Shown here piece after piece: positions 47,062 to 49,895 of a stretch of 64,000 bases of DNA. Under the pieces are notes generated by a model. That model was given only the letters and a program-made list of their open reading frames with translations, made no database searches and had not been told where the DNA came from. The DNA comes from Acidobacteriota bacterium (GTDB lineage: Bacteria; Acidobacteriota; Terriglobia; Terriglobales; Acidobacteriaceae). A program made the translations under genes and the position numbers. The stretch lies in assembly GCA_003010405.1 (NCBI GenBank), contig PJLO01000012.1, positions 1 to 64,000 on the forward strand, read 5' to 3'. Within the stretch, counting starts at the first letter, position 1. Each line of letters starts with the position of its first letter.

Positions 47062-47550
47062 ATGATGCGGATCTCCAGATTTCTTTTGGTCGAACGATGC
47101 ATTGCGACAGCGATTGTGTTGTTGGGCTTTTCCGGCCTTTGCTACGCTGCCCTTGGAGGCAAAGTCGATTCGGTTGAAGCCGACCAACGTCATATGAAGG
47201 CTCAGCGAGTTGTTCGAGCCAGCGGCAAATATTCAGTACACGAGATCACGACACCTTACGGCACGGTAGTGCGGGAATTTGTCTCTCCGGCGGGGACGGT
47301 GTTCGGCGTGGCCTGGCGTGGACCTTTTCTTCCAGACTTCCAGCAGCTTCTGGGCAATTATTTCGGAGAGTTTGCGCAGGGCGCTCAGGAAGCAAAAAGC
47401 GCACAGCCCAGGCGGTCGCACAATGCGGCTTTGGCAATAGAACATTCGGACTTTGTTATGCATTCGGGAGGTCACACACGAGCCTACGCCGGGCATGCCT
47501 ACGTACCAGGATTGATTCCGCAGGGCGTTGAAGCCCAAGACATTCGGTAA
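47062..47550 (+). CDS. DUF2844 family secreted protein
   Basis: 162 residues. Signal peptide (about 1-29) ends GLCYAALGG, and the family start ALGGKVDSVEADQRHMKAQ follows. The body has YSVHEITTPYGTVVREFVSP, AGTVFGVAWRGPFLPD and LLGNYFGEF. DUF2844 genes commonly sit before DUF3443 genes, as here, 11 nt apart. They look like a co-exported pair. Function unknown. Confidence 0.86.
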   Translation: MMRISRFLLVERCIATAIVLLGFSGLCYAALGGKVDSVEADQRHMKAQRVVRASGKYSVHEITTPYGTVVREFVSPAGTVFGVAWRGPFLPDFQQLLGNYFGEFAQGAQEAKSAQPRRSHNAALAIEHSDFVMHSGGHTRAYAGHAYVPGLIPQGVEAQDIR

Positions 47551-47561
47551 AGGGAGGGGAC

Positions 47562-48950
47562 GTGCGAAGAATCGCATTTGTGCTTTTGATTGCCGCTTTG
47601 TCTGTTGGCATAGGGTGTGGCGGCGGTAGCAGCAGTAGCAGCAAGGATAGCAATACGATTGTCACCTCCGGCCATAATGTTGCGCCGCTTATTGTCGATG
47701 CCGGCCCGGCTCCTGCCACCAACCCCCAGGTGAACATGGTGTTCACCACCGTCGTCGTATGCGTTCCGAATTCCACCACAAACTGCGTGACCATCGATCA
47801 TGTCCTGGTTGATACCGGTTCAACCGGTTTGCGGATTCCAGCATCGGCGTTTGCGGGGTTTTCAAATGGCGCAACCGTCCTTGCGGCATTGCAAAACGTC
47901 AATCCCAGCGCTCCGGTTGCCGAATGTATGCAGTTTTTGGACAACAGCTTCTTCTGGGGAGCCGTGAAATCGGCTGACGTAAAAATGGGCGGGGCCGACA
48001 ACACCGGCGAGGTAGCTAGTTCGGTGCCGATACACATATTAGGCGACACCTCCGTACCGTCGCGGAGTTCAATACCAAGTACATGCTCGACAGTCACTCA
48101 AGTCAATGGAACTAAGACAACCGGAACCGAGGAGGATACGGTCGCTGCGCTGGGCGCCAATGGCCTGCTAGGAGTTGGCAATTATCAGTATGACTGCGAT
48201 GTTCTCGGGTACAGCAATCCTTGCACCTCTGCGAGCAATGCTCCTTCGGGGATGTATTACAGCTGTTCGGGTTCAAGTTGCAGTGTTGCCGCAGTGCAGA
48301 CGGCTCAGCAGGTTCGTAACCCCGTATCGCTGTTTGCCGATAACAATGGCGTGATAATCGAATTACCTGCTGTTCCCGCGGGCGGGCAGGCAGGCATTTC
48401 TGCGGGCCAGGGATCACTGGTTTTCGGCATAGGTACACAGGCAAACAACGTGCTTAGCAGTAGCGCGGTTGTCCTGCCGCTTGATTCCAACCCGTCTGAT
48501 GCAGCGTGGCTTGGCATTACGACGGTGTTCAACGGGGTTTCATATCCTAATTCGACGAGTTCTATTGGCAGTTTCCTCGACAGCGGCTCGAATGGCATGT
48601 TTTTCCTGGATCAGCCAACTTCCAAGATACCGGCCTGTGGCGGTTGGTACTGTCCCACATCCGCCCAGAGCCTGACGGCAACCAACAGAGCAGCCAACGG
48701 CAACAGCCGCAAGCACCAGTTCACTGTGAGCAACGCCGAGACGCTCTTTAACAGTAATAGCGGCAACAACACTGCCTTTAGCGATCTGGCCGGACCGAAC
48801 ACCTCGGGAGTTCCTAATGCCGCTACACAGGCAGCAGATGGATATTTCGACTGGGGCCTGCCATTTTTCTTTGGCCGGAATGTTTATGTGGCGATCTGGC
48901 AGGTGACTCCGCCGAGCGGTGTTGCCGCAGGTCCTTTCTGGGCATACTAG
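47562..48950 (+). CDS. DUF3443 family surface lipoprotein-like protein with pepsin-like motifs
   Basis: 462 residues. Signal segment ends at SVGIGC19, so lipid anchoring is possible, though the lipobox is imperfect. A Ser-rich linker follows. Two aspartic-peptidase-like motifs stand out: D84 in VLVDTGSTGLRIP and D340 in FLDSGSNGMFF. Several Cys residues (CVPNSTTNC, CDVLGYSNPC, YSCSGSSC, CGGWYC) suggest disulfides in an exported protein. It starts with GTG at 47562 behind GGGAGGGGAC and follows DUF2844 closely. Peptidase activity is inference from motifs only. Confidence 0.85.
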   Translation: MRRIAFVLLIAALSVGIGCGGGSSSSSKDSNTIVTSGHNVAPLIVDAGPAPATNPQVNMVFTTVVVCVPNSTTNCVTIDHVLVDTGSTGLRIPASAFAGFSNGATVLAALQNVNPSAPVAECMQFLDNSFFWGAVKSADVKMGGADNTGEVASSVPIHILGDTSVPSRSSIPSTCSTVTQVNGTKTTGTEEDTVAALGANGLLGVGNYQYDCDVLGYSNPCTSASNAPSGMYYSCSGSSCSVAAVQTAQQVRNPVSLFADNNGVIIELPAVPAGGQAGISAGQGSLVFGIGTQANNVLSSSAVVLPLDSNPSDAAWLGITTVFNGVSYPNSTSSIGSFLDSGSNGMFFLDQPTSKIPACGGWYCPTSAQSLTATNRAANGNSRKHQFTVSNAETLFNSNSGNNTAFSDLAGPNTSGVPNAATQAADGYFDWGLPFFFGRNVYVAIWQVTPPSGVAAGPFWAY

Positions 48951-49028: not shown

Positions 49029-49895
49029 TTAAGGGGATGCCGGAGTGGGGTGGTTGCGCAGAAACTCCAGCGCCTGGGCAACCGTCATTTTAGGAACGGG
49101 GCAATAGCCCCATGCCGTTTCGGTCTGTTCAATGTGCAGCGACTTGAAAATAAGGATGCGTCCATCGAAGTTTATTTGCATCCGCGTCAAGCCCCAATGT
49201 CTGTCGGCCACCCGGGACTGGGTTACTTCGATGTGGCCTCCGCGATTTAGGCGGCCAAGAAAGCCCCAGCCAAAAGAAACATCCCTAAACAGAGTTCCTT
49301 CAATACTGGTAATTCGCTTTTCCGGGCGATCAATCAGAATCACGGTCCTCATTCCCTGATATACCTGCGATTCATGATTCGGAGCAGAGTAATTCGGAGC
49401 AGGTGAGCATTCCAGCCGCACATTGTGCTCATCGTGGGGGGCGGAAGCGTACTCGCACCGGAAAGCGTCTGGAAGAGCACGCAGCAGGCGCTCGATGTGC
49501 TGCTGATCTTCTTGCTGCTTCTTAGCTTTGGCGCGCATATTTTCGGGATCGAGGAGGCTATTCATCCGCGCGTCATCCTGTTGACGTTCCTGCGCGGTCA
49601 GCGGTCTATCGTTCACGGCGACGGTTCGGCTCAGGATGCCCTGGGGAGTGTTGACCATTAGCTTGGTTACGGAGCCGCGTGGCTTCTGAATGCGGTCCAT
49701 CCAGGCGTAATAGCCATTTTTTTCGGCGGGTATTTCCTTGGCCACGGCTTGCCGGAGCAATTCATTGGCATTCAAAACCGGCTCAATGGAATTGTGGTGG
49801 CTGGACATTGCCGGAGTGATCAGGGTCATTGCCGTGGCCATAATCAGGCCCAATGTCCGCAGCGCTCCCCGGTCTTTGCTTACTTGGGAACTCAT
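49029..49895 (-). CDS. Secreted protein of unknown function
   Basis: 288 residues. A signal segment (about 12-31) precedes a charged region with coiled character (LTAQERQQDDARMNSLLDPE, then AKKQQEDQQHIERLL) and a C-terminal beta-rich domain (YQGMRTVILIDRPEKRITSI, GHIEVTQSRVADRHWGLTR). The C-terminal half recalls LolA-like sheets, but I see no decisive motif. It ends before tRNA-Leu in the other direction. ATG at 49893-49895 chosen; the ribosome site is weak. Confidence 0.72.
   Translation of the reverse strand: MSSQVSKDRGALRTLGLIMATAMTLITPAMSSHHNSIEPVLNANELLRQAVAKEIPAEKNGYYAWMDRIQKPRGSVTKLMVNTPQGILSRTVAVNDRPLTAQERQQDDARMNSLLDPENMRAKAKKQQEDQQHIERLLRALPDAFRCEYASAPHDEHNVRLECSPAPNYSAPNHESQVYQGMRTVILIDRPEKRITSIEGTLFRDVSFGWGFLGRLNRGGHIEVTQSRVADRHWGLTRMQINFDGRILIFKSLHIEQTETAWGYCPVPKMTVAQALEFLRNHPTPASP

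Follow-up and report, generated by a model that had tools for sequence, protein, structure and literature searches.

A predicted pepsin fold in the exported bacterial protein family DUF3443 and its linkage to DUF2844

Introduction

Can an exported bacterial protein that is named only as a domain of unknown function be a pepsin-type aspartic peptidase? The question is raised by an open reading frame (ORF) in the window, the 64,000-nucleotide stretch of acidobacterial DNA analyzed here, in which an earlier note had recognized two motifs resembling the active-site Asp motifs of pepsins in a DUF3443 protein, a family that it took to be exported and widespread, and had remarked that bacterial pepsin-like enzymes are rare. 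In 2009, bacterial pepsin homologues were presented as few, intracellular, and perhaps acquired, and bacterial PF00026 pepsins are described, in the available portion of that account, as being without signal peptides; two bacterial homologues that are without the psi-loop motifs were judged probably inactive (Rawlings and Bateman, PMC2761423). According to the accessible parts of two further papers, shewasin D resides in the cytoplasm, is active at acid pH, and is sensitive to pepstatin (PMC4814920), mycobacterial PecA, an aspartic protease, is exported and does not complement as a D293G mutant, and PE_PGRS16 has a pepsin fold and intact motifs, with no activity seen (PMC6819658). Because bacterial pepsin-type proteins such as shewasin D and PecA are thus known, the remark on rarity holds only in a relative sense. 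What would be new is an exported DUF3443 family with a predicted pepsin fold and a link to DUF2844, which would add a large, cysteine-rich, bilobed family to the bacterial pepsin-type enzymes.

Results and Discussion

The DUF3443 locus

The window protein is a clear member of DUF3443 (Pfam PF11925; residues 38 to 462, E = 2.8e-102, 342.8 bits against a cutoff of 25), covering positions 4 to 367 of the 367 in the profile, and both motifs, with D84 and D340, lie at the residues assigned to them earlier (Table 1). Its GTG start codon is preceded immediately on the 5′ side by the purine-rich GGGAGGGG. Missing from the earlier note is the gene directly upstream, which encodes a DUF2844 protein whose stop codon is separated from the DUF3443 start by 11 bases; the genome holds one copy of each gene. 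On the other side, a gene convergent with that of DUF3443 (positions 49029 to 49895, minus strand) encodes 288 aa; its product is probably exported and matches nothing in Pfam or NCBIfam at E ≤ 10.

Table 1. Coordinates of the DUF3443 gene, its parts, and the adjoining DUF2844 gene in the window
Feature	Position	Strand	Size or residues	Basis
DUF3443 ORF, GTG start	47562..48950	+	462 aa	Pfam, AlphaFold2 model, fold searches
Signal peptide to lipobox Cys19 (SVGIGC)	47562..47618	+		Sequence; Cys in the column in 82 of 86 aligned rows
N-lobe active-site motif VLVDTGSTGLRIP, D84	47802..47840	+	81-93	Alignment
N-lobe psi-loop partner NGLLGVG (hydrophobic-hydrophobic-Gly)	48159..48179	+	200-206	Alignment; strand in model
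C-lobe active-site motif FLDSGSNGMFF, D340	48573..48605	+	338-348	Alignment
C-lobe second psi-loop element FDWGLPFFFGR	48846..48878	+	429-439	Alignment; helix then strand in model
DUF2844 (PF11005), small exported protein	47062..47550	+	162 aa	Pfam, E = 5.8e-42, full-length member

Conservation of the active-site motifs

Conservation was assessed from an alignment seed of 16 DUF3443 proteins (the window protein plus 15 relatives from genome searches), with which a scan of public genomes returned at least 467 relatives; the best 80 loci were retained, and in the main set of 86 rows, 85 ORFs from these loci stand alongside the window protein. The patterns by which loci were fetched (FD[WF]G.. 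and L[GL]ANG..) contain neither Asp motif, so that conservation of the two Asp residues is not a selection artifact. A second, more divergent set of 59 rows was drawn from Burkholderiales genomes and plasmids; it is limited to matches above 100 bits, and in some cases its rows cover overlapping pieces of a single gene.

Both of the hydrophobic-hydrophobic-Asp-[ST]-Gly-[ST] motifs that characterize peptidase family A1 are present, and their Asp residues are conserved across the family, which the earlier note had made a test of its reading. Among the best 80 of at least 467 loci, D84 is Asp in all 85 rows that cover it (one ORF, cut by the end of its contig, is without the region) and is followed by Thr or Ser at position 85 (85/85), G86 (83/85), and S87 (85/85); D340 is Asp in 86/86 rows and is followed by Ser or Thr at 341 (86/86), G342 (85/86), and Ser or Thr at 343 (86/86). 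Each Asp motif is also followed by a predicted second psi-loop element. In the N-lobe element (NGLLGVG), position 203 is Leu, Ile, or Val and position 204 is Gly in every one of the 86 rows from these best 80 loci; in the C-lobe element (FDWGLPFFFGR), F429, G432, and F435 are each present in 86/86 and D430 in 85/86, such that the C-lobe psi-loop reads D-[WF]-G in place of the hydrophobic-hydrophobic-Gly of pepsins.

In the Burkholderiales set, both Asp residues are again present in all of the covering rows (58/58 for each), with a first motif of DTGS in 51, DTAS in 3, DTES in 2, and DSGS in 2, and a second motif of DSGS in 43, DTGS in 11, DSGT in 3, and DTGT in 1. The Asp residues are therefore never lost in either set, and the Gly of the first motif is gone from a few Burkholderiales rows (5/58, to Ala in 3 and Glu in 2), with 2/85 exceptions at the same position and 1/86 in the second motif for the best 80 of at least 467 loci. 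Since the first-motif Gly has changed to Ala or Glu, some Burkholderiales paralogues may have decayed: the DTAS copies (loci L134, L135, and L159) and DTES copies (L127 and L130), all of which keep both Asp residues, are possibly decayed or altered. L127 and L130 overlap on one DTES gene, which lies beside normal-motif copies in its genome (G336).

A counterpart of the flap Tyr75 of pepsin is not clearly assignable in the candidate flap hairpin of the model (residues 119 to 142). Aromatic residues of this hairpin are conserved among the best 80 of at least 467 loci: position 125 is Phe in 83 and Tyr in 2 of 85 rows, position 130 is Tyr in 62 and Phe in 13, and W132 is present in 85/85.

Searches by sequence

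By sequence, DUF3443 is not a recognizable member of the Pfam family Asp (PF00026). This family gives no match to the window protein at E ≤ 10 and is absent from the 25 families listed for 81 DUF3443 members; a scan of the genome to which the window belongs gave no PF00026 signal, nor any for the controls; and among PDB chains, no pepsin was found by phmmer with the window protein or by hmmsearch with profiles of 16 and 81 rows. Alignment by hhalign to four bacterial PF00026 proteins produced only local matches to the first Asp motif (E = 0.0089 and E = 0.036), the better of which spans 15 columns at a probability of 4.6%; with one of the proteins the motifs were matched crosswise, and forced-global runs yielded no alignment. 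Asp_protease_2 matches 4 of the 81 members weakly (best, 0.0057). PF20729 (PE-PGRS_C) does so in 2 of 81 (best, 5.4e-5), namely the DUF3443 ORFs of L034 and L070, and in 2 of 50 genomes at scores below the cutoff (best, 22.1 bits against 33); the match was not repeated at E ≤ 1 when the two full-length proteins were rescanned, and we do not rely on it for this reason. A kinship with pepsins was missed because such searches do not link the two, and annotated records still carry the name "DUF3443 family protein." Open-access literature returned no paper naming DUF3443, DUF2844, or PF11925, and wider searches of it returned no description of the DUF3443 family, although an earlier pepsin-like note may exist elsewhere.

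Predicted fold

An AlphaFold2 model of residues 29 to 462, built from 81 aligned sequences without templates, has a pLDDT of 89.6 and a pTM of 0.92. In a Foldseek search of the PDB, 18 chains matched at E ≤ 0.001, every one of them pepsin-type (including endothiapepsin, penicillopepsin, Candida Sap5, plasmepsins, and BACE2; E = 3.7e-9 for 1ent), and the first match of any other kind had an E value of 0.53. VIA-align placed the Irpex lacteus proteinase 1wkr first (Z = 23.1 over 290 residues, rmsd 3.2, 17% identity) and aligned porcine pepsin 1psa at a Z of 21.1 (275 residues, rmsd 3.3); among the matches listed, 50/50 are pepsin-type, with Z values of 20 to 23 over 270 to 292 residues, and 554 of 1,000 chains reach a Z of at least 8.

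The structural match extends over both lobes (residues 8 to 434 of the model), giving a bilobed pepsin fold in a single chain, and the order of helix and strand after G432 agrees with the C-lobe of pepsins. Because the full-length match, order, and spacing all agree, D84 and D340 are predicted to occupy the positions of the pepsin catalytic dyad. Structure prediction thus bears out the pepsin likeness first seen in the motifs, and we regard a pepsin fold for DUF3443 as near certain on the strength of the model. Retropepsin-like bacterial proteases have one lobe per chain; the retropepsin family A2, whose single-lobe protomers are active as dimers, was considered and ruled out, DUF3443 having two motifs and two lobes per chain.

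Export, lipid anchor, and cysteines

The proposal that the protein is exported is upheld by a lipobox-type signal peptide ending in C19. Within the main set (best 80 of at least 467 loci), the lipobox column holds Cys in 82/86 rows, and 74/86 pass a strict lipobox rule; the SVGIGC of the window protein fails this rule, with its C19 aligned to the conserved Cys column. Ten further cysteines (positions 67, 75, 122, 175, 212, 221, 235, 240, 359, and 364) show almost no variation across the main set. Between the lipobox Cys and N39, the first conserved Asn, the median distance is 23 residues (range, 12 to 278, in 74 rows from the best 80 of at least 467 loci). The prosegment of pepsin is about 44 residues long, and most DUF3443 members would, judging by these distances, have no space for an N-terminal prosegment of the pepsin type. 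Some proteins have longer N termini: those of L061, L064, and L096 carry, ahead of the pepsin unit, an extra stretch with the common pattern LTIPxVxVG...YxNVxV, and that of L015 has a long N-terminal extension.

The DUF2844 partner

DUF2844 is an almost obligate partner of DUF3443. It is encoded at 75/80 of the best loci (of at least 467), on the same strand every time, and lies immediately upstream at 72 of these, further upstream at 2, and downstream at 1. Four of the five loci that are without it (L049, L074, L078, and L090) start at the edge of a contig; only L097 truly is, and its genome (G339) contains DUF3443 with no DUF2844 anywhere. Both families occur in the identical 17 of 41 related genomes, and DUF2844 is present at 57 of the 58 loci of the Burkholderiales and plasmid set, the exception being from Caballeronia (L136). 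Gene order can flip, with DUF2844 downstream at L071, L121, and L123. No other neighboring family occurs at more than 7 of the 80 best loci (of at least 467), apart from an antisense cluster at 14 loci, the frame of which overlies the DUF2844 gene in the one example examined (L024).

Tandem or neighboring DUF3443 copies are found at L044, L046, L048, L072, and L074 and in genome G336; at L046, L048, and L072, the tandem copies have one DUF2844 gene in common. On the Burkholderia glumae plasmid pBGF2 (L135), the DUF2844-DUF3443 pair is flanked by the chemotaxis genes cheD, cheY, and cheZ on one side and the flagellar genes flhB/flhA on the other, with a VOC-family gene separating the pair from flhB.

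DUF2844 proteins have a signal peptidase-type A-x-A site and, two residues into the predicted mature protein, an invariant Leu-Gly (74/74 rows). The DUF2844 model has a pLDDT of 88.7 and is weakest in its first 20 residues (block means, 75 and 69). Foldseek returned no match to it at E ≤ 0.001, and the best VIA-align Z is 7.3, with none over 8; distant neighbors at Z values of 4 to 6 are PepSY-like (DUF2874 and YpeB chains) or resemble beta-lactamase inhibitors. As a lead, the conserved, poorly ordered N terminus of DUF2844, taken with a protease that is without a prosegment, suggests that this segment becomes ordered on binding. A precedent for inhibition by an N terminus is the nematode pepsin inhibitor PI-3, whose N-terminal residues block pepsin. 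From the linkage and the model we infer a role for DUF2844 as a trans-acting inhibitor or chaperone of DUF3443, a tentative assignment that we hold at somewhat under even chances. The linked gene offers an immediate test of how such an enzyme might be controlled without a prosegment.

Function and alternative explanations

The explanation that we favor, and consider fairly probable, is that DUF3443 is a lipid-anchored, exported aspartic peptidase that is controlled by, or acts on, DUF2844; it would probably work at the cell surface as a protease that comes with its own regulator or substrate. DUF3443 would be a single-chain, bilobed aspartic endopeptidase whose site of action is the cell surface or the envelope, its lipid serving as a membrane tether and its cysteines forming disulfides that stabilize the protein outside the cytoplasm. 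As in pepsin, D84 and D340 would face each other between the lobes and activate a water molecule for attack on the peptide bond. We hold with less certainty that the enzyme is restrained in trans by the DUF2844 protein encoded with it, a proposal made because a typical member, with about 23 residues between the lipid-bearing Cys and its first strand, has no room for a prosegment on the same chain; the invariant Leu-Gly lies near the mature N terminus of DUF2844, in a low-confidence and probably mobile segment that could fill the cleft. Catalysis itself is predicted to be quite likely, the main points against it being the C-lobe D-[WF]-G, the lack of a clear flap Tyr75, and the small number of rows in which a Gly has gone.

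Some of these departures would suit a protein with the pepsin fold that does not cut, whose cleft binds a peptide or polymer and for which DUF2844 is a bound ligand or co-receptor, much as plant xylanase inhibitors of pepsin fold bind their target. The replacement of hydrophobic-hydrophobic-Gly in the C-lobe and the change of the first-motif Gly to Ala or Glu in some Burkholderiales rows both point this way, and PE_PGRS16, as far as the available text of PMC6819658 goes, illustrates that a protein may have both the fold and the motifs and still show no activity in tests. Mere binding, however, needs no two carboxylates, whereas the Asp residues and the Ser or Thr that follows each are kept in every covering row of the main set (best 80 of at least 467 loci), which takes in two phyla and the one Thermodesulfobacteriota row, and of the Burkholderiales set, and the rows with a changed Gly are few and have both Asp residues intact; we consider this explanation unlikely. 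A coincidental likeness of motifs within an unrelated fold is more improbable by far. No sequence search ties the family to pepsins beyond one motif, yet the template-free model is confident and its full-length pepsin match stands far above all other folds, so an unrelated fold is rejected by the AlphaFold2 model and the Foldseek and VIA-align matches unless the model itself is wrong.

The role of DUF2844 could also be reversed, with the DUF3443 lipoprotein acting as a processing protease that trims or releases DUF2844, the latter being its substrate and the real effector. One-to-one linkage and co-occurrence would be expected of such a pair, tandem enzymes sharing a single DUF2844 suit several enzymes per substrate, and the mature N terminus of DUF2844 is conserved and poorly ordered in the model. 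On the other hand, the loci without DUF2844 (L097 in G339 and L136 in Caballeronia) suggest other targets, and no cleavage-site pattern was identified in DUF2844, leaving this a rather doubtful reading, if a little less so than a non-cutting protein. Returning to restraint in trans, we propose, with considerable reserve, that DUF3443 and DUF2844 form a self-contained envelope protease module, in which a lipid-anchored pepsin has had its zymogen restraint transferred from a cleavable prosegment to a second exported protein, the product of the neighboring gene. The pair is present in at least two bacterial phyla, and if the proposal is true, bilobed exported pepsins with trans-acting inhibitors would constitute an old bacterial branch distinct from PF00026. 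Two families "of unknown function" become testable proteins.

Comparison with known aspartic peptidases

Members of MEROPS family A1 (PF00026), such as pepsin, the Irpex lacteus proteinase 1wkr, and endothiapepsin, share with DUF3443 the arrangement of two lobes in one chain, a pair of D[TS]G[ST] motifs, the N-lobe hydrophobic-hydrophobic-Gly, and a full-length structural match. DUF3443 differs from them in sequence, matching neither PF00026 nor solved pepsins at a detectable level, and also in its lipobox, its own ten conserved cysteines, its C-lobe D-[WF]-G, and its coupling to DUF2844, and in mostly having no room for a prosegment. Unlike the retropepsin-like bacterial proteases, it has both lobes in one chain; the two share an Asp motif in the style of clan AA, and some of these proteases are secreted, according to the portions available of PMC12239564 and PMC4140852.

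Shewasins A and D resemble DUF3443 in being bacterial and bilobed and in having two catalytic Asp residues (predicted for DUF3443), but they belong to A1 by sequence and, in the available part of PMC2761423, have no signal peptides, whereas DUF3443 is exported. If the motif alignment is right, L433 (82/86 rows, best 80 of at least 467 loci) falls at pepsin Asp303, a position at which Leu also occurs in Shewanella and Colwellia (PMC2761423, available part). The C-terminal domain of PecA and PE_PGRS16 (PF20729) is likewise an aspartic protease fold from exported bacterial proteins, and it carries DTG and DSG motifs; DUF3443 has neither the PE domain nor the type VII export signal of these proteins and carries a lipobox signal peptide instead. 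PF00026 itself was found in 4 of 369 Gammaproteobacteria genomes, and three of the proteins (L099:1366-2613, plus strand; L100:1321-2640, plus strand; and L101:1093-2382, minus strand) have signal peptides by eye, in which they differ from the intracellular bacterial pepsins known in 2009.

Distribution

Among related genomes, DUF3443 occurs in 17 of 41. In Burkholderiaceae the count is 142 of 299, a single genome having as many as 6 matches, and in an order sample it is 20 of 200, one of these 20 (G883) matching only below the family cutoff; in a broad sample of the phylum to which the window belongs, however, it is present in only 3 of 297. The description of the family as widespread is therefore apt for some groups. 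A pepsin-type family present in about half of the sampled Burkholderiaceae and in many Acidobacteriota would bear directly on the origin of two-lobed pepsins. In a quick tree, the window protein stands beside five Acidobacteriota MAGs, its nearest relatives (SH-aLRT, 83), and the rows from Acidobacteriota (38) and Pseudomonadota (41) are largely separate, with one from Thermodesulfobacteriota (best 80 of at least 467 loci). The 14 pattern matches on viral contigs include no relative, and the five plasmid records with DUF3443 are all from Burkholderiaceae.

Two Burkholderiales genomes encode lipoproteins of about 670 to 680 aa with four D[TS]G motifs (L125:349-2391 and L129:319-2328, both on the plus strand), with no DUF2844 adjoining them within the stretches examined. 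Weakly similar to both DUF3443 and Asp_protease_2, these proteins have the look of a head-to-tail fusion of two bilobed pepsin units.
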